Assembly: GCA_905480215.1 (NCBI GenBank)
Contig: CAJQPL010000082.1
Span: forward strand, 1-34,307
DNA: 34,307 bases
From: an uncultured Woeseiaceae bacterium
GTDB lineage: Bacteria; Pseudomonadota; Gammaproteobacteria; Steroidobacterales; Woeseiaceae
Direction: 5' to 3'
The notes beneath the pieces are model-generated. The model ran no database searches. It was not told where the DNA came from and saw only the letters and a list, made by a program, of their open reading frames with translations. Position numbers and translations under genes: made by a program. This document shows, one piece after another, positions 7,713 to 25,191 of this stretch; within the stretch, counting starts at the first letter, position 1; each line of letters starts with the position of its first letter.

Positions 7713-9374
7713 GTGGAGAAAGTCTGGCTCAAATCCTATCCGGAGGGCATGCCCGCAGAGGTGCCGGAACCACCGTATCGCTCCGTCCGCGAATTATTTG
7801 AGCAGGCTTTTGAGGCATATCCTGAGAATGCGGCTTACACCAACATGGGCAAGACGCTTAGCTACGCCGATCTCGACCGATTGTCGATGCAGTTTGCGTG
7901 CTACCTGCAGGACACCTTAGGTCTAACTCGAGGCGAGCGGGTCGCGATCATGTTGCCGAATGTTCTGCAGTATCCGGTCGCAATGTGCGGCATCTTTCGC
8001 GCGGGCCTTGTCGTCGTTAACGTCAATCCGCTGTATACAGCGAGAGAGCTCGAACATCAGCTAAAGGACTCCGGTGCCAAGTGCATTCTTGTCCTGGAAA
8101 ATTTCGCGCATACGCTCGAAGAGGTCATCGCCGAAACTAATGTGTCGCATGTCGTAACCACGGGCATTGGCGATCTGCTCAGCTGGCCGAAGAGCGTCAT
8201 CACCAATTTTGTTCTTCGCCACATCAAGAAAGCGGTTCCTGCGTACCGATTCGAAAATCAGTTCACGTTCAAACAGGCACTCAAAGCTGGCACTGGAAAA
8301 GTGCTCAATGAGGTCGAACTCGGTTATGCCGATATTGCTTTTCTGCAGTACACCGGTGGCACTACAGGCGTTTCGAGAGGCGCGATGCTCAGTCATCGCA
8401 ACATGGTCTATAACGTGTATCAAAGTATCGTTTGGCAGGCCGATTCCTATGCCGGCGTGCAGCCGATAATAGCGATCACTGCGCTGCCGCTGTACCACAT
8501 CTTTTCGCTGCAAGGGAACTGCCTCACGGTGATGGCCCAGGGCGGCGAGAATATACTCATTACGAATCCGCGAGACTTTGAAGCTTTTGCCAAAGAAATT
8601 GCGAAGGTCGAATTTAATCTCTTTACCAGCGTAAACACGATGTTCGCCGCACTAATGGATACACCGAGTTTTTCCCGTATCGATTTTAGTAACCTGCGAG
8701 TCTGCATAGGTGGCGGTATGGCCGTACAAGCGGCTATCGCCAAAGAGTGGCATGAGAAAACCGGCAATTGGATACTGCAGGGTTATGGCCTGACCGAAAC
8801 CTCACCAGCCGCGATTGTCTGTCGAATAGATGCCGAGTTCACAGGCACAATCGGCTTACCGCTGCCATCAACAGAAGTGATGATTGCCGGCGATGATGGT
8901 AATCCACTAGCCATCGGCGAAATCGGCGAGATATGCATTCGCGGACCACAGGTGATGGAGGGCTACTGGCATCGTCCAGCGGAAACAGCGGAAACCATGC
9001 TGCCGGGCGGCTGGCTACGAACCGGCGATATTGGAAGAATGGATGATGCTGGCTACACCTTCATTGAAGACCGCAAGAAAGACATGATTCTTGTGTCAGG
9101 ATTCAACGTCTATCCGAACGAAATCGAAAACGTCATTGTGGAAATGGAGGGCGTCCTCGAGGCTGCTGCCATCGGTATGCCAGACGAGCGATCGGGCGAG
9201 ATCGTCAAGGCCTTCGTGGTTCGAAAAGACGCCAGCGTCACCGAACAAGACGTGAAAGATCACTGTCGCGAGAACCTCACTAACTACAAGCGACCAAAAT
9301 TCGTCGAGTTCCGTGATGACTTGCCAAAAACCAATGTCGGCAAAATTCTAAGAAGGGCATTACGTGACGAATAA
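7713..9374 (+). CDS. fadD: Long-chain fatty-acid--CoA ligase (FadD-type)
   Basis: A 553-aa ANL-superfamily ligase that activates fatty acids to acyl-CoA through an acyl-adenylate. The AMP/P-loop motif YTGGTTGVSRGAM starts at about residue 213, GYGLTETSP at about 357, and the TGD-containing motif GWLRTGDIGRMDDAG at about 435. The hinge/fatty-acid signature DRKKDMILVSGFNVYPNEIE and the C-terminal catalytic lysine in KTNVGKILRR are present. Length and the IVWQ/PLYHIFSLQGN region fit E. coli FadD. The start is a GTG at 7713 preceded by a strong GAGGGG Shine-Dalgarno; the N-terminus MEKVWLKSYPEGMPAEV matches the family. It overlaps the next gene by 11 bp. Chain-length preference is inferred only. 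Confidence 0.95.
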   Translation: MEKVWLKSYPEGMPAEVPEPPYRSVRELFEQAFEAYPENAAYTNMGKTLSYADLDRLSMQFACYLQDTLGLTRGERVAIMLPNVLQYPVAMCGIFRAGLVVVNVNPLYTARELEHQLKDSGAKCILVLENFAHTLEEVIAETNVSHVVTTGIGDLLSWPKSVITNFVLRHIKKAVPAYRFENQFTFKQALKAGTGKVLNEVELGYADIAFLQYTGGTTGVSRGAMLSHRNMVYNVYQSIVWQADSYAGVQPIIAITALPLYHIFSLQGNCLTVMAQGGENILITNPRDFEAFAKEIAKVEFNLFTSVNTMFAALMDTPSFSRIDFSNLRVCIGGGMAVQAAIAKEWHEKTGNWILQGYGLTETSPAAIVCRIDAEFTGTIGLPLPSTEVMIAGDDGNPLAIGEIGEICIRGPQVMEGYWHRPAETAETMLPGGWLRTGDIGRMDDAGYTFIEDRKKDMILVSGFNVYPNEIENVIVEMEGVLEAAAIGMPDERSGEIVKAFVVRKDASVTEQDVKDHCRENLTNYKRPKFVEFRDDLPKTNVGKILRRALRDE

Positions 9375-9741
9375 AGGCCAGAAATTTCTATCAATACTGC
9401 CGCTGTTACTGCTAGCCGCTGTTGTCAGCGCAGCCGTACCAATGCCACTGGATCCAGTTCGAGTAGCACCACACATCTTTGAACTCGAATTTGAGAACGA
9501 GCGCGTTCGAGTTATCAAACAGACCATTCGTAATGGCGAAACTCAACCGCTTCATGCGCATCCGGATCGGCTGCTGGTTTATTTGCAAACTTGTGCCTGG
9601 CTTGAGAATGACGCCAATGGTAATGAGCAAATGCAGGAGTTTAAATACGGTCAGGTAGTTTGGGCCGATGCTGTGACGCATGGGGGTGAGACTGCGAATG
9701 TTGTGCAAGAGTGTCGGATTTTGCAGATTGAGGTTTTGTGA
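9364..9741 (+). CDS. Small exported cupin-like protein
   Basis: A 125-aa protein with an N-terminal hydrophobic segment ending VVSAAVPMP, a plausible signal peptide cleaved near residue 23. The mature part looks like a single cupin domain: ENERVRVIKQTIRNGETQPLHAHPDRLLVYLQ contains the metal-type HxH pair (His 64 and 66), and a second strand pair GQVVWADAVTHGGETANV contributes another histidine. It starts with GTG at 9364 inside the last codons of the acyl-CoA ligase (11-bp overlap), so translational coupling is likely. No function can be assigned; it resembles uncharacterised periplasmic cupins. Its stop codon lies 8 bp before a long hairpin. Confidence 0.75.
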   Translation: MTNKGQKFLSILPLLLLAAVVSAAVPMPLDPVRVAPHIFELEFENERVRVIKQTIRNGETQPLHAHPDRLLVYLQTCAWLENDANGNEQMQEFKYGQVVWADAVTHGGETANVVQECRILQIEVL

Positions 9742-9749
9742 GCTGTTTC

Positions 9750-9828
9750 GGCGCGTGCCGGGAAATGTTTATCGGAATGGCTCGCTACGCTGCGCTTTAT
9801 TTCCTGTAAACATTTCCCGGCACGCGTC
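9750..9828. repeat. Long hairpin with shared 23-nt loop, copy 1 (between convergent genes)
   Basis: A 20-bp perfect stem (9752-9771 with 9807-9826) is followed inward by a GT wobble (9772/9806), one mismatch (9773/9805) and four pairs (9774-9777 with 9801-9804). It closes on a 23-nt loop at 9778-9800 whose core is GGCTCGCTACGCTGCGC. The hairpin fills the convergent gap between the cupin gene and hemE, ending 3 bp from the hemE stop codon. No strong T-run follows on either strand. It may end transcription in both directions. The loop is identical to that at 23089-23111, while the stem sequence is unrelated. Confidence 0.92.
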
Positions 9829-9829
9829 T

Positions 9830-10885
9830 TTAACGGTGGTACGCGGGACTTAAATCATGCACGGCTTGGACTAGGGCGCCTAGATGTTCCGGGTCGATGT
9901 CTGGGGTTATTCCGTGGCCCAGGTTGAAGACGTGGCCTGGGCCGTCACCGTAGCTCGCCAGGGTATTAGCGACGCCTTCGCGAATCACTTCCGGGCTTTC
10001 TCTTAGCGTTGCCGGATCCAGGTTGCCCTGTAGAGCGACTTTGTCATTTACGTATTCGCGCGCTGTCGCCAAGTCGGTCGTCCAATCGACTCCAAGTGCA
10101 TCGCAGCCGATGTTGGCCAAATCTGATAACAATGGACCTGCGTTCTTTGTGAAGACTATGACGGGTATTTGGCTGCCGTCTTTTTGTCTGGTGAGGCCGT
10201 CAATGATTTTTTCCATGCTGGCCATCGAGAAGCGGCGGAAATCGTCGGGTGGGAGCACAGCGCCCCAGGTATCGAATATTTGTACTGCCTGGGCACCGGC
10301 ATCGATTTGTGCGTTTAGGTAGTGGATGGTGGTCTCGGCCATGATGTTCATCAGGTGGTCGAGAACCTCCGGGGCTTCTGCAGCGAGGCCTTTGATGGTT
10401 GGAAAGTCGCGGTTCGAGCCGCCTTCTACCATGTAGGTTGCTACGGTGAATGGGCTGCCTGCGAAACCGATTAGTGGTACATCACCGTTGAGTTCACGGC
10501 GTACTCGAGCAACTGTTTCGAACACATAGCTGAGTTTCTTCTCGACATCAGGGACGCGCAGGGCCTTGATCGCGGCGGCGTTCTGAACCGGTCTCTCGAA
10601 TTTTGGACCTTCGCCGCTGACGAAGTATAGCCCGAGACCCATCGCATCGGGGATCGTCAGTATGTCGGAGAACAAGATAGCTGCGTCGAGTTTGAAGCGG
10701 CGCAATGGCTGTATCGTGACCTCACAGGCCAGTTCCGGGTTCTGGCACAGGCTCATAAAGTCGCCCGCTTCTGCGCGCAGCGCTCGATACTCGGGAAGAT
10801 AGCGGCCCGCTTGGCGCATGATCCAGACTGGCGTACGTTCTACCGGCTGGCGCAACAGCGCCCGCAGTAACAGGTCATTTTTCAA
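9830..10885 (-). CDS. hemE: Uroporphyrinogen decarboxylase
   Basis: A 351-aa enzyme that decarboxylates uroporphyrinogen III to coproporphyrinogen III in haem synthesis. The signatures [16 protein letters not shown] (about residues 20-35, with the substrate-binding arginines) and [17 protein letters not shown] (about 140) are intact, as are [14 protein letters not shown] with the catalytic Asp and the C-terminal [16 protein letters not shown]. The start is TTG at 10885: the frame upstream reaches the tandem TGA codons at the end of pyrF with no ATG or GTG, AGAGGA lies 9 bases upstream, and [15 protein letters not shown] aligns with the N-terminus of known HemE. It is the last gene of the minus-strand array that starts at pilM, 21 bp after pyrF. 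Confidence 0.97.
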
Positions 10886-19821: not shown

Positions 19822-22440
19822 ATGCATAATCCAACGCAAAAAAAAGCGAAACCACGTCACATAAGACGACGACGAGCCCTAAGAACTTTGATTATTGCGC
19901 TGGGTTTTGGCTCGATTAGCGCAATTGGGGCCGTCGCCGGCGTTATCGGCGCTTACTATTATGTGCAGCCGAGCCTGCAGTCCGCGGAGACCATCCGTGA
20001 TATCCCGCTGGAGGTACCACTGCGTATATTCAGCCGGGATGGCTACCTGATCAGCGAAGTTGGCGAGCGAAAGCGCATCCCGGTCACCTATGAGGATCTA
20101 CCGCCGCACGTGGTCCACGCTTTTATCGCTGCTGAGGACCGACGCTTCTTTGAACACTCTGGAATTGACTACCGCGGCGTTCTGCGCGCGGTTTTGCGCC
20201 TGGCGAAGACCGGCAACGCTTCGGGCGGTGGCGGCAGCACACTCACTCAACAGCTGGCACGCGACTATTTTTTGACTCGCGAACAGACTGTGCAGCGCAA
20301 GCTCACGGAAGCCTTCCTCGCTTATAAAATTGAGCAGGAGTTCACGAAAGATCAGATCATGGCGCTGTTCCTCAACAAGATGTTTTTCGGGCAGCGCGCT
20401 TACGGTGTCGCCGCTTCCGCGCAAGTCTTCTTTGATAAGAACCTGAGTCGTATCAATATTGCCGAAGCCGCCACCCTGGCCGGTGTTTTACCGGCGCCTT
20501 CACGATACAACCCGGTGAGCAATGCCGAGAATGCGAAGAATCGTCGTGGCTATGTACTCGGTCGCATGCGCGATCTTGGGTATATCAGTGACAGCGAATA
20601 CGACGAGGCGATGGCCTATCCGATGGAATCACGGCTGCACGGCGCGGCCATCGAGCTGAACGCGCCTTACGTAGCCGAGATGGTTCGCAGTCAAATGCTC
20701 AAGCGTTATGGCGAGGATGCCTACACGGCCGGCTACCAGGTAGTAACAACGCTCGATTCGCGTCTGCAAAAAGCAGCGAATTACGCATTGCGCAATGGTC
20801 TGCTCGAGTTTACGCGGCGCCGCGGATACCGCGGGCCACATGCGCAGGTTGCGCTCACCGCCGAGATTGCGGCATTACCGTTTGAACAATGGCCGGACGA
20901 AATTTTGCAACCACTCGATCGATACGCGCCGGGTGGCTTGTCTTTGGCGCTGGTCACAGAAGTTTCGCAAGACAATACGGCGAGCATCGTGTTTCGCGAC
21001 GGCACCACCGCGGTTATTCCCTGGTCTGGTTTGCGTTGGGCGAATCCTTTCATCGACCGTGAGAACTTTGGTCCTGCCCCTGAAACTGCGGCAGAAGTCG
21101 TAGCCATCGGCGACATTATCTATGTCATGCCAACCGCCGATGATTACTGGGCGCTGGCACAAGTTCCGGAAGCACAATCCGCGGTCGTTTCAATTGACCC
21201 TTACGACGGCGCCGTTTCAGCGCTAACAGGCGGTTTCGATTTTACAGTGAGCAAGTTCAATCGCGCCCGCCAAGCGTACCGACAACCAGGTTCTGCGTTC
21301 AAACCCTTCATATACTCAGCTGCACTCGAACATGGCAACACCGCTGCGACAGTAATTCTGGATGCGCCGGTCGTCATCAGCTCGTCTGAGCTTGAGGCCA
21401 TCTGGCGACCCATTAACTACAGCGGTCGCTTTTACGGGCCAACACGCTTGCGCGAAGCGTTGAAGCGATCGATGAATCTTGTCTCCGTTCGTTTGCTGCT
21501 TTTTGAAACTGGCGTCGGTAACGCAATTCGGCACCTCGAAAAGTTTGGTTTTAGCGATGCCACATTGATAAGAAATGGCTCGCTCGCCTTAGGTGGCGGT
21601 CAGGCCTCACCGCTGGATATGGCGCAGGGCTATGCAATCCTCGCAAACGGTGGTCATGCGGTAACGCCCTACATTATTGATTCCATTTACAGCGCGACCG
21701 GCGAACCGCTATTTCGCGCCGAAGCCGCGATTGTCTGTGAAGAGTGTATTGCGGATGAGAAGCCACCTTCGAGCGACGAGGACACACGGTCCGAAGAAGA
21801 AATTGCTGCGGCGAGGGAAAGCGCGCTGGAGCAAATGGCCGATGTTGCTGAAACCTATCGACCAGATGCGAGCATAGCGCCCGAGTTGTTCGAGGGCATC
21901 AATCTCGCACCGCAGGCCATAACGCCACAGAACGCGTTTATCATCCAGGACATGATGCGAGGCGTTGTCGGTCCTGGCGGAACGGGAGCTCGCGCGCGCC
22001 GCGAGCTCGGCCGAACCGACCTGTCCGGGAAAACCGGTACCTCAAACGATCGCCGCGATGCGTGGTTCGGCGGCTTTAACGCGGATCTCGCCGCCGTTGT
22101 CTGGGTCGGTTACGACGACGATTTACCGCTCGGCCCCCGCGAAGAAGGCTCACGTACGGCCCTGCCGATCTGGGTTGAGTTTGCTCGCATTGCATTAGAG
22201 GGCGCACCCAACCATCAGATGCCGATGCCGGAGGGCATAACATCGGTCAGAATCGACTCTGCCACCGGTTGCCGCGCCAAATTTGGTCAGCTGAATTCAC
22301 AGTTTGAGGTATTTCGAGTCGGGAACGAACCCGATTGCGAAGAACTTGGCGACGTTACAGATCTGTTCAACAATGCAGCAGGTGTCGATCCAGAGCCTGA
22401 AGGTGAAGATGAAGATGAGGATACTGAATCCCTCTTTTAA
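19822..22440 (+). CDS. mrcA: Penicillin-binding protein 1A (bifunctional transglycosylase/transpeptidase)
   Basis: An 872-aa class A PBP that polymerises and cross-links peptidoglycan. A basic cytoplasmic tail is followed by a TM anchor (about residues 24-50). The GT51 domain shows EDRRFFEHSGID (about 105) and GGSTLTQQLARD (about 136). An OB-type insert (about 320-440) is typical of PBP1A. The transpeptidase domain has the SxxK nucleophile in GSAFKPF (about 490), SMN (about 550) and KTGTSND (about 737). The C-terminus is strongly acidic (EPEGEDEDEDTESLF), and an acidic linker rich in E and D lies near 645-680. The start is ATG at 19822. Divergence from pilM is common in this class. The next gene follows after 4 bp. 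Confidence 0.97.
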   Translation: MHNPTQKKAKPRHIRRRRALRTLIIALGFGSISAIGAVAGVIGAYYYVQPSLQSAETIRDIPLEVPLRIFSRDGYLISEVGERKRIPVTYEDLPPHVVHAFIAAEDRRFFEHSGIDYRGVLRAVLRLAKTGNASGGGGSTLTQQLARDYFLTREQTVQRKLTEAFLAYKIEQEFTKDQIMALFLNKMFFGQRAYGVAASAQVFFDKNLSRINIAEAATLAGVLPAPSRYNPVSNAENAKNRRGYVLGRMRDLGYISDSEYDEAMAYPMESRLHGAAIELNAPYVAEMVRSQMLKRYGEDAYTAGYQVVTTLDSRLQKAANYALRNGLLEFTRRRGYRGPHAQVALTAEIAALPFEQWPDEILQPLDRYAPGGLSLALVTEVSQDNTASIVFRDGTTAVIPWSGLRWANPFIDRENFGPAPETAAEVVAIGDIIYVMPTADDYWALAQVPEAQSAVVSIDPYDGAVSALTGGFDFTVSKFNRARQAYRQPGSAFKPFIYSAALEHGNTAATVILDAPVVISSSELEAIWRPINYSGRFYGPTRLREALKRSMNLVSVRLLLFETGVGNAIRHLEKFGFSDATLIRNGSLALGGGQASPLDMAQGYAILANGGHAVTPYIIDSIYSATGEPLFRAEAAIVCEECIADEKPPSSDEDTRSEEEIAAARESALEQMADVAETYRPDASIAPELFEGINLAPQAITPQNAFIIQDMMRGVVGPGGTGARARRELGRTDLSGKTGTSNDRRDAWFGGFNADLAAVVWVGYDDDLPLGPREEGSRTALPIWVEFARIALEGAPNHQMPMPEGITSVRIDSATGCRAKFGQLNSQFEVFRVGNEPDCEELGDVTDLFNNAAGVDPEPEGEDEDEDTESLF

Positions 22441-22444
22441 GAAT

Positions 22445-23056
22445 ATGGGTAGAAAGCAAACAAGCGAAGCAGAACGCGCCCGGCAAATAGTCGCTCAGGA
22501 AGCTGCGCGCATTATTGTTAATCAGGGCATTCGCGACTACCGGCTCGCAAAACAAAAAGCCGCGGAGCGACTTGGATTGAGTTCGCGTGGCTCATTGCCA
22601 GGCAATGCCGAGATCGAAGTTGCGGTGGCAGATTACTTACAAATATTTGGTGGTGATGAACATGCCGACCTACTGCGCCTCATGCGCACTGCCGCGCTAT
22701 CAGCAATGGAATTGCTAGCGCCCTTTTCCCCACGACTTGTCGGTCCGGTATTGGCGGGTACTGCCGATGATAATTCGGCCGTTAATCTTCACGTCTTTGC
22801 AGACAGCCCGGAAATGATCGCGATGGAAATTGGTGACAGGGGTATACAGTTTAAATCCTACGAGCGCCGCCTGAAGACTCGGCGCGGACAAATTGAAATG
22901 TATGCAGGGTTTGAGTTTCGCCACATCAACGAAACAATTCAGGCAACAGCGTTCCCTATTGATGGCGAACGGCAAGCACCTCTAAGTCCGATTGATGGAA
23001 AACCGATGAAACGAGTAAATGCTGGTGCGGTGCAGGAGTTGCTTCAACATGTATGA
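22445..23056 (+). CDS. Conserved hypothetical protein, possibly nucleotidyltransferase-like
   Basis: A 203-aa soluble protein. The N-terminal third is helical and rich in Ala/Arg (EAERARQIVAQEAARIIVNQGIRDYRLAKQKAAERLG). The middle, APFSPRLVGPVLAGTADDNSAVNLHVFAD, looks like the core strands of a minimal nucleotidyltransferase fold but lacks a clear G-S/D-x-D catalytic pair. The end has the conserved-looking RQAPLSPIDGKPMKR. From memory, proteins of this form occur in many beta- and gammaproteobacteria without a known role; this is recollection, not a search. The ATG at 22445 lies 4 bp after the mrcA stop, so it is probably cotranscribed with mrcA; longer in-frame starts would lie in mrcA. The stop codon overlaps the arm of the hairpin at 23055. 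Confidence 0.78.
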   Translation: MGRKQTSEAERARQIVAQEAARIIVNQGIRDYRLAKQKAAERLGLSSRGSLPGNAEIEVAVADYLQIFGGDEHADLLRLMRTAALSAMELLAPFSPRLVGPVLAGTADDNSAVNLHVFADSPEMIAMEIGDRGIQFKSYERRLKTRRGQIEMYAGFEFRHINETIQATAFPIDGERQAPLSPIDGKPMKRVNAGAVQELLQHV

Positions 23057-23145
23057 CAAGAGTGCGGCCTGATAAATATTTCTAGCAATGGCTCGCTACG
23101 CTGCGCTTTATTTGCTCGAAATATTTATCAGGCCGCACTCTTGTC
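23055..23145. repeat. Long hairpin with shared 23-nt loop, copy 2 (between convergent genes)
   Basis: A 28-bp perfect stem (23055-23082 with 23118-23145) is followed inward by one mismatch (23083/23117) and five pairs (23084-23088 with 23112-23116). It closes on a 23-nt loop at 23089-23111 with core GGCTCGCTACGCTGCGC. The left arm begins within the TGA stop of the upstream gene, and the right arm ends 21 bp from the gltA stop. There is no T-run on either side, so it is not a textbook intrinsic terminator. Loop and internal mismatch position match the copy at 9750-9828; the stem sequence is entirely different. Confidence 0.94.
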
Positions 23146-23166: not shown

Positions 23167-24459
23167 TTAGCGTTCTTCGATCGCCGTGTAGTCTCTTGCG
23201 ACTGGCCCTGTGTAGAGCTGTCGTGGTCGGGCAATCTTGCCACTTGGATCAGAAATCATTTCACGCCAGTGCGCTGTCCAGCCTACCGAACGACCCAGTG
23301 CAAACATCACTGTGAACATTGACGTTGGGATGCCAAGCGCTCTGTAGATAATGCCTGAGTAGAAGTCGACATTCGGGTACAGGTTCTTCTCCACAAAGTA
23401 GTCGTCTTGTAGCGCAACTTGCTCGAGCTCCAACGCAAGATCAAACATCGGCGTGTCTTTTCTATCCAGTTGCTTCAGGACCTTGTGCGCCATCTCGCGG
23501 ATGATCGTCGCGCGCGGATCGAAGTTCTTGTAAACGCGGTGGCCGAAGCCCATCAAACGGAATGCATCGTTTTTGTCTTTCGCCTTCTCGACGTATTTGC
23601 CGATCTGACTGACATCACCAATTTCCTCGAGCATATTGAGCACTGCTTCATTCGCACCGCCGTGTGCGGGGCCCCACAGCGCGGAAATGCCGGCAGCAAT
23701 AGCTGAGTAAGGGTTTGCACCAGAACTGCCTGCCATACGCACGGTGGACGTTGAACAGTTCTGTTCATGATCGGCGTGCAGGATAAACAGTAAATCGAGC
23801 GCTTCCGCTGCAACCGGATCAATCTCGTAAGGTTCGGCTGGCACGGCGAATAACATGTGCAGCAGGTTCTCGGTGAAATTGAGATCATTGCGCGGATATA
23901 TAAATGGCTGGCCGCTATTCAATTTGTAGGCGGCGGCAGCAATGGTTGGCAGCTTGGCCAGAATCCGGTGCGCAAATATGTCCCGGTGCAGAGGATTCGA
24001 TGAGTCCATCTCTTCGTGGTAATACGCGGACATGGAACCGACGACAGCGGATAACATTGCCATCGGATGGGCGTTGTAACGAAAACCCTTGAAGAAGCTC
24101 AGCATGCCGTCGTTGAGCATGGTGTGCATGCGGATGGTGTTATCGAATTCGCTTAGCTGCTGCTCGGTCGGCAATTCACCGTTCAATAAAAGGTAAGAGA
24201 CTTCAATGAAGCTGGAGTTGGCTGCCAGCTGCTCTACCGGGTAGCCCCGGTACATAAGGATGCCTTCCTCACCGTCAATGTAGGTGATATCCGACTCACA
24301 GCTGCCTGTTGAAACAAAACCTGGATCGTACGTAAATACTCGTTGGTCACGGTACAAACGCGCAATGTCGACCACGTCCGGACCAACGGTACCTTTTCTA
24401 ACAGGCAACTCTGTTTCCACGCCTTCCGGGCTCTTTAGTCGGTATACATCCTCAGTCAT
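23167..24459 (-). CDS. gltA: Citrate synthase (type II)
   Basis: A 430-aa enzyme condensing acetyl-CoA and oxaloacetate to citrate. It has the N-terminal small beta domain of the hexameric, NADH-sensitive Gram-negative type ([42 protein letters not shown]). Catalytic regions are [20 protein letters not shown] with the first His (about 265), [16 protein letters not shown] with the second His (about 308), and NVDFYSGI with the Asp (about 365). The start is ATG at 24459. It lies downstream of rpmE on the same strand, separated by 135 bp holding an inverted repeat and a palindrome, and converges on the hypothetical gene across the copy-2 hairpin. Confidence 0.97.
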
Positions 24460-24798: not shown

Positions 24799-25191
24799 GA
24801 TCTGGCTCTCCCGAGCGGACTACTGCATAAAAAAGGGCGCGTAGGATATAGGGAAGCAGGATTCGCCGCAAGCCCCCAATCTTATCCACAGAAGCTGTGG
24901 ATAAGACTGTGGATGATTTTTGAGTGAATGCTCTAAGCTGCGGTTTTTCAAAGATTGATGTCAAAATGATTAAATAGTGTCCATTTTCGTTAATTTATTT
25001 AAAACAATAACTTACAACGATTTTGAAACACTCTATGTGAGATAGGGGCCCTCTTCCACTGAAAATAAAGGCATACCCAAAGTCTTGTGCATAAATGCAT
25101 AAGGCGAAACCGGACTCACAAGGCCGCAGTTAAATATTATTAATGGCCGAAAACCTGCCCTTGAGGCAATAAAATTGGCGATCACCGGCCG
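24799..25191. other. 393-bp non-coding, AT-rich gap between rpmE and hemW
   Basis: I find no gene here. The rpmE-proximal part holds its leader and a possible promoter. A DnaA-box cluster lies at 24882-24916. From about 24917 to 25080 the DNA is clearly richer in A and T than its surroundings, with runs such as TTAATTTATTTAAAAC at 24990-25005. The rest, up to the hemW stop, shows no strong terminator. Confidence 0.8.
24881..24916. promoter_or_regulatory. Cluster of DnaA-box sequences
   Basis: TTATCCACA, the perfect DnaA-box consensus, is at 24882-24890, and its exact reverse complement TGTGGATAA at 24896-24904. Together they form an 11-bp inverted repeat with a 3-nt centre (24881-24905). A third box, TGTGGATGA with one mismatch, follows at 24908-24916. 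It lies about 85-120 bp upstream of rpmE, next to AT-rich DNA. The sequence match is certain; DnaA binding is inferred. Confidence 0.75.

Follow-up and report, generated by a model that had tools for sequence, protein, structure and literature searches.

The window analyzed here, a stretch of 34,307 nucleotides (nt) from an uncultured sediment bacterium of the Woeseiaceae, contains two long hairpins, one next to hemE and the other next to the gene for citrate synthase (Table 1). Both lie in tight gaps between convergent open reading frames (ORFs) and both point the same way; the ORF coordinates agree in this with an earlier model-made reading of the letters alone (the sequence-only reading). 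The 3′-end of the ORF upstream of copy 1 has similar counterparts that adjoin hemE in five relatives compared, and the outer arm of copy 2 begins within the stop codon of its own upstream ORF (22304–23056).

Table 1. Positions in the window of the two hairpins, their cores and the neighboring genes.
Feature	Position	Strand	Remarks
Hairpin copy 1	9752–9826	minus (conserved strand)	arms 9752–9777 and 9801–9826; model match 9755–9823, 79.0 bits
Hairpin copy 2	23055–23145	minus (conserved strand)	arms 23055–23088 and 23112–23145; model match 23066–23134, 79.7 bits
Copy 1 core	9777–9799	minus	5′-TAAAGCGCAGCGTAGCGAGCCAT-3′; internal-loop halves TAAAGCGCA and GAGCCAT flanking mini-hairpin GC-GTA-GC
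Copy 2 core	23088–23110	minus	same sequence as copy 1 core
ORF upstream of copy 1	9364–9741	plus	125 aa, without Pfam match
hemE, uroporphyrinogen decarboxylase	9830–10885	minus	Pfam URO-D; convergent neighbor of copy 1
ORF upstream of copy 2	22304–23056	plus	250 aa, without Pfam match
Citrate synthase gene	23167–24459	minus	Pfam Citrate_synt; convergent neighbor of copy 2

The arms of copy 1 are 26 nt long and 92% complementary, which resolves into 20 perfect base pairs, two mismatched positions and four inner base pairs, with the 20-bp and 4-bp stems that had been proposed; those of copy 2 are 34 nt long and 97% complementary, and each pair of arms encloses 23 nt. The proposed identity of the two loops also stands, with a shared exact core of 26 nt (AATGGCTCGCTACGCTGCGCTTTATT) that has no other match in the window at up to three mismatches; the same search in 100 shuffled windows gave a mean and a maximum of 0 matches. 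Folded as RNA, the two copies reach z-scores of −8.8 to −12.5 on both strands, and none of 200 shuffles was equally stable. What fails is the contention that the outer stems share no sequence: compared in register over 31-nt arms, the copies are 52% identical on the left and 58% on the right, which is usual for the family described below (46–58%). Elsewhere in the window, another inverted pair (24874–24912, 18-nt arms, 89% complementary) lies in the gap that precedes the citrate synthase gene; one arm contains CTTATCCACAG and its partner CTGTGGATAAG, and we take the pair to resemble two inverted DnaA boxes.

The element as a whole is about 85 nt long and consists of arms of about 29 nt, a conserved internal loop (AARTAAAGCGSA/GAGCCAT) and an inner mini-hairpin. 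On the minus strand of the window these follow one another as arm, AARTAAAGCGSA, inner hairpin, GAGCCAT and arm, and we refer to this strand of the element as the GAGCC strand. In G043, a genome with 51 copies, conservation begins and ends sharply at the limits of the arms. Across the family, the median arm length is 29 nt whether the convergent gap is tight or wide. Most inner hairpins read GC-GNA-GC, where N is C in 84, A in 33, T in 31 and G in 3 of 187 sites, counts that include a CC-GNA-GG variant. Five of the 187 sites have ACA or AAA loops instead, further exceptions to the GNA rule are found among elements with longer inner stems, and in some genomes the mini-hairpin is swapped for longer hairpins altogether. 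A portion of PMC4686876 describes GNA and GNNA loops closed by at least two G-C pairs as extra-stable DNA mini-hairpins, and an inner cGNAg loop with a free N would fit that rule. The likeness to the d(GCGNAGC) mini-hairpins thus lies in the GC-GNA-GC of the core, with N free and some GNNA variants; unlike them, the mini-hairpin is here one module of a larger element and can be exchanged for longer inner hairpins. A second module (CTCGATCCCGCTTGACGGGA and variants) occurs within the loop of elements in L015, L085, L097, L120, L124, L183, L191 and L221; it is also found apart from elements (L161, L175), adjoining GCTCCTAC, which is GTAGGAGC on the opposite strand, and its 13 occurrences look like a mosaic with another palindromic repeat.

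The home genome is 65% complete (2.17 Mb, 87 contigs) and yielded two copies, by pattern and by covariance model; tolerating two mismatches in the pattern added one match on another contig (L003) with a fold of a different type. Two copies and no more, which the sequence-only reading would have taken as a sign against its proposal, is what this incomplete genome offers but not what its relatives offer: there we find many copies, with a near-invariant core and varying yet paired stems, mostly at convergent or 3′ sites, as that reading had anticipated. If one mismatch is allowed, the 17-nt core is present in 47 of 73 genomes of the genus (at most 51 matches per genome, compared with 0–2 for a reversed-pattern control) and in 53 of 107 genomes of the family; the exact 26-nt core occurs in nine stretches of GTDB contigs, all of them labeled as Woeseiaceae, gammaproteobacterial or proteobacterial MAGs. 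A covariance model (R1) built from 90 elements aligned without gaps matched at least 68 of 107 family genomes, at least 69 of 296 order genomes (at least 12 of them from other families) and at least 5 of 369 class genomes (at least 3 of them outside the order), all of which are lower bounds because only a few candidates per genome were scored (at most 47, 17 or 13) and the filters were stricter. The copy number ranges from 0, even by the model in G051 and G061, two genomes of the genus that are 99% complete, to 54 by pattern search in G043. A number of MAG contigs begin no farther than about 100 nt from an element (G067:C20 and C82, 52–74; G035:C7, 45–61; G017:C27, 17–33; G006:C140, 72–88), as if the hairpins break assemblies, and copy numbers in MAGs may therefore be underestimates. 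In viral contigs, two patterns had no match and a third had one chance match without a stem (L408), and no match to the one G464 element tested was found in plasmids and phages. The hairpins are thus members of a large and widespread family of dispersed palindromic repeats that is apparently undescribed; a description of such a loop-conserved repeat family was not found among the PMC titles and abstract openings searched.

The stems of this family co-vary strongly, yet they are not wholly private to their sites. After removal of 20 sites that were more than 85% identical to others, the 187 sites gave 167 non-redundant elements, 110 of which passed filters for the length of the core, for gaps and for the stem score; the 90 best-scoring stems among them were taken into the alignment. 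In this set, preselected as it is for good stems, 538 cells have both sides of a pair changed, compared with 129 in shuffles; 86.7% of the pairs are standard, compared with 65.4% in shuffles and 34–45% with slid partners; and all 22 outer pairs have changed on both sides. The suggestion that the hairpin is a signal under selection whose stem only needs to pair is also supported, and the strand asymmetry described below identifies the GAGCC strand as the one concerned. The idea of a conserved loop on a private stem survives in part: the core is near-invariant and the stems co-vary, but the arms share a diffuse consensus. Mean arm identity in register spans 46–58%, from 46% for different sites of different genomes to 58% for different sites within a genome, and at orthologous sites of different genomes it is 51–53%, below the within-genome value.

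It is informative to examine how the elements change where the same site can be followed between genomes. The groups of sites with homologous flanks on both sides comprise 10 (hemE), 9 and 8 (citrate synthase) sites, besides smaller ones. In 79 of 146 orthologous pairs the two elements are oriented differently with respect to their flanks; the pairs are not independent of one another and include some gaps with two elements. In one pair of opposite orientation (L118 and L124) the arms are 82% identical and the element is inverted. Among close pairs with at least 92% arm identity, four double changes (both partners of a base pair) stand against five half changes, counted as distinct events, and over the 27 pair positions counted the only differences between L090 and L182 are two double transversions. 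All 29 close pairs together, which are likewise not independent, have more half changes (85) than double changes (72, of which 42 are double transitions and 30 double transversions). A G·U intermediate is not available to a double transversion. According to a section of PMC8604942, homogenization of the arms and inversion of the spacer are described products of polymerase template switching between short inverted repeats, and bacterial data cited there favored transversions. From these parallels we infer that template switching across the hairpin would keep the arms alike; coupled changes could also arise, at least in part, where pairing is under strong selection. Template switching, which the sequence-only reading had offered as one possible source of the stems, thus gains support as an arm-homogenizing process from the coupled double changes, the many transversions and the inversions in place at orthologous sites. 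The elements resemble template-switch-homogenized quasipalindromes in the homogenization of their arms and the inversion of the spacer (PMC8604942), with coupled arm changes; they differ in that a single core recurs across many sites and genomes and there is one favored strand. Close orthologous gaps at hemE and citrate synthase, few in number, were compared and showed neither a clean empty site nor a target duplication; gaps with and without an element differ along their entire length. The divergence of stems at orthologous sites points to long residence, and the mobility of the element is putative. In L095, L103, L112, L184, L202 and L212, hemE or citrate synthase gaps that have no element contain other long hairpins. 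A further orthologous site (L012, L015, L016, L017, L022, L049) lies about 550–630 nt from contig ends and matched no Rfam family; in L016 and L017 it contains two elements in opposite orientation.

The family also has an asymmetry between its strands. At stem positions 5–26, read on the GAGCC strand of the 167 non-redundant elements, there are 284 G·U and 41 A·C pairs, with G·T and A·C scored symmetrically. Counted per element, G·U is favored in 119 and A·C in 6, with 42 ties (sign test), and the excess is present in each of the three main subclasses (46:14, 216:25 and 19:2). It does not depend on how the neighboring genes are read: at tandem sites the ratio is 73:4 with the GAGCC strand antisense to its two neighbors and 40:8 with it sense, and at eleven tight tandem sites, ten of which were Pfam-scanned for both neighbors and which include recA-recX, purH-purD, aroK-aroB and ruvX-pyrB, it is 24:2. 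The residual wobbles therefore sit on the GAGCC strand whatever the direction of transcription. Because the asymmetry does not follow transcription, pairing is kept on the element's own strand, either as single-stranded DNA (ssDNA) or as an RNA that does not arise by read-through from the neighbors. A loop that stays constant on a stem whose two halves vary in concert suggests that one strand is recognized as a folded hairpin.

Among known systems, the closest in outline are the REP-like repeats in the wide sense, since the element is a dispersed palindrome, mostly extragenic (4 of 187 sites lie within called ORFs) and 3′ of genes. REP and BIME sequences of the GTAG and CGTC types are, in the parts of PMC3733652 that concern them, likewise dispersed palindromes of uneven copy number at the 3′-ends of genes. 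However, the arms here are about 29 nt, compared with REP stems of 5–13 or 8–9 base pairs, and it is the internal loop and core that are conserved, not the stem and a terminal tag. In the outer 25 nt of the 167 elements, GTAG occurs in 22 on the left and 9 on the right (13.5 and 8.7 in shuffles) and CTAC in 23 on the right (15.9 in shuffles), a slight excess without a fixed position in the profile; as neither a fixed terminal GTAG nor an associated Y1 transposase was found, the GTAG class was rejected. Y1 transposase genes (PF01797) are present in 13 of 20 genomes, where no relation to copy number is evident by eye, and a model search of their 17 loci found no element; a link to RAYTs was set aside on both counts. 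The CGTC class, with its terminal CGTC, stem of 8–9 base pairs and loop of 4–5 nt, does not match arms with a median of 29 nt, and CGTC is not enriched at the outer ends (20 and 22 of 167 elements, compared with 17.0 and 25.0 in shuffles), although it lies beside the core, internally, in many class B copies.

Integron attC sites carry R″ and R′ boxes (RYYYAAC and GTTRRRY) at the base of the stem. In the 167 elements such boxes were found in 4 on the left, 1 on the right and none on both sides (shuffles 2.1, 1.6 and 0), so that the box pair of an attC site is not seen. The two have features in common, in that attC sites, as presented in part of PMC2727003, are single-strand hairpins of variable sequence and conserved structure from which one strand is chosen; but attC sites are conserved at the base of the stem and variable at the apex, and here the apex is conserved and the base variable. 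No Rfam family reached its gathering threshold in the 15 loci scanned (7 and 8), and a relaxed cutoff (E ≤ 1, six loci) brought up nothing but subthreshold matches, namely those of four microRNA models to copy 2 and that of a leader at another position in L001. The element is best filed as a REP-like dispersed palindrome, apparently a variant not described before, and we infer by analogy that it may work in principle like the folded sites of REP/RAYT or attC/IntI, while failing the tests of membership in either.

These observations can be brought together in a model that we find about as easy to credit as to doubt, namely a new REP-like, strand-specific hairpin repeat whose arms are homogenized by template switching and which is read by a putative trans-acting protein. 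The recognized form would be the folded single strand GAAATAAAGCGCA-(hairpin)-GAGCCATTC, most likely as ssDNA; the protein would read the internal loop, and the stem would serve as a scaffold. Copies would spread within genomes as non-autonomous REP-like elements and would survive mainly in 3′ gaps, where they do the least harm. Template switching across the hairpin during replication would keep the arms alike and invert the element, and selection for a stable hairpin on the GAGCC strand would also keep the arms alike.

It is possible, if unlikely, that the GAGCC strand instead acts as a structured RNA, a 3′-UTR or independent hairpin that is bound by a protein and serves mRNA protection, processing or regulation. 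Strong covariation with G·U wobbles is a classic sign of a conserved RNA, the sites lie directly past stop codons, and an RNA from an antisense transcript would account for the strand asymmetry equally well; folding energies under DNA and RNA models do not discriminate, and DNA is not favored. However, of the 57 tandem sites whose called genes on either side lie within 400 nt, 33 have the conserved strand as antisense and 24 as sense, the asymmetry is equally strong when antisense, and the orientation flips at orthologous sites. Nor do the G043 copies have a conserved promoter-like sequence outside the hairpin, and the Rfam result stated above points the same way.

A different perspective comes from a distant genome, G464, whose three copies (L400:2942–3138, L399 and L401) are near-perfect palindromes around the same core, with arms of 81, 56 and 41 nt (the last with a further 21-nt outer pair) and 0–1 mismatches, and only about 10–16 nt beside the core common to all three. 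The 81-nt pair starts 8 nt past a tRNA-Gly gene and fills the gap up to the next ORF. In another genome, G160, six of eight matches have arms of 27–31 nt with a consensus of their own. Nothing else supports as strongly the idea, raised in the sequence-only reading, that the core is fixed and the stem is made anew, and one can imagine a mobile hairpin that inherits only its loop core as sequence: a putative enzyme would recognize the folded ssDNA of one strand, and the stem would be rebuilt at each site by template switching and may grow by copying local DNA, up to the near-perfect 81 base pairs seen there. We regard this fuller scheme as speculative and rather doubtful.

Less probable still is a chromosome-level DNA site, that is, a cruciform or hairpin whose binding would serve nucleoid folding, topology or replication. 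The near-invariant core, the presence across the order and the sharing of orthologous elements by several genomes, for example in the hemE and citrate synthase gaps, would suit such a role. The copy number, from 0 even in two 99%-complete genomes to 54, speaks against it, as does local GC skew at 87 convergent sites, which shows no replication-strand bias (mean −0.004, t −1.1).

The placement of the elements invites a comparably improbable reading, a bidirectional terminator of convergent genes that lacks a U-tract, as had been suggested for the two hairpins of the window. Where genes were called within 400 nt on both sides (150 sites, leaving out five duplicate loci, any locus shorter than 600 nt and any core no more than 250 nt from the end of its locus), 92 sites are convergent, 57 tandem and 1 divergent, compared with 22, 237 and 58 of 317 other adjacent gene pairs in the same loci, a baseline in which loci carrying two elements enter twice. 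The automatic gene calls are noisy, in that two runs disagree on some sites and copy 1 was called tandem where its ORFs are convergent. Such placement alone is ordinary, given that known REPs, in the relevant portion of PMC3733652, lie at 3′-ends of genes, mainly at convergent and unidirectional sites, with uneven copy number between species. T is not enriched at the hairpin exits of the 167 elements (fraction 0.24, control 0.222; at least six T in eight positions in 1 of 167, compared with 8 of 167 in the control), so that the U-tract of an intrinsic terminator is not seen. The terminator idea is weakened by this result, and elements also lie inside tandem pairs (recA-recX and aroK-aroB, Pfam-named) and show no preference there for the transcribed strand, the plus strand being sense in 33 and the minus strand in 24, and neither strand-specific pairing nor an invariant loop is needed for termination. 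Finally, an element that inserts a core and duplicates the local DNA of each site in inverted form is very improbable; the nearly private arms of G464 would suit it, but arms within the order, and in Woeseiaceae in particular, have a fixed length, a diffuse consensus and sharp ends, and in G464 we found neither a copied gene end nor an empty site, with arms that stop before the gene or tRNA in the two loci whose neighbors were examined.

The group that includes the Woeseiaceae thus carries an abundant and apparently undescribed repeat family with an inverted design, in which the loop is constant and the stem is free. Copies at orthologous sites, with their inversions and their concerted changes in the two arms, provide a natural record of template switching in bacteria. 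A strand asymmetry that is independent of gene direction offers a test, from sequence alone, of whether a dispersed palindrome acts as a folded single strand, and in this family it points to a putative hairpin-binding factor.
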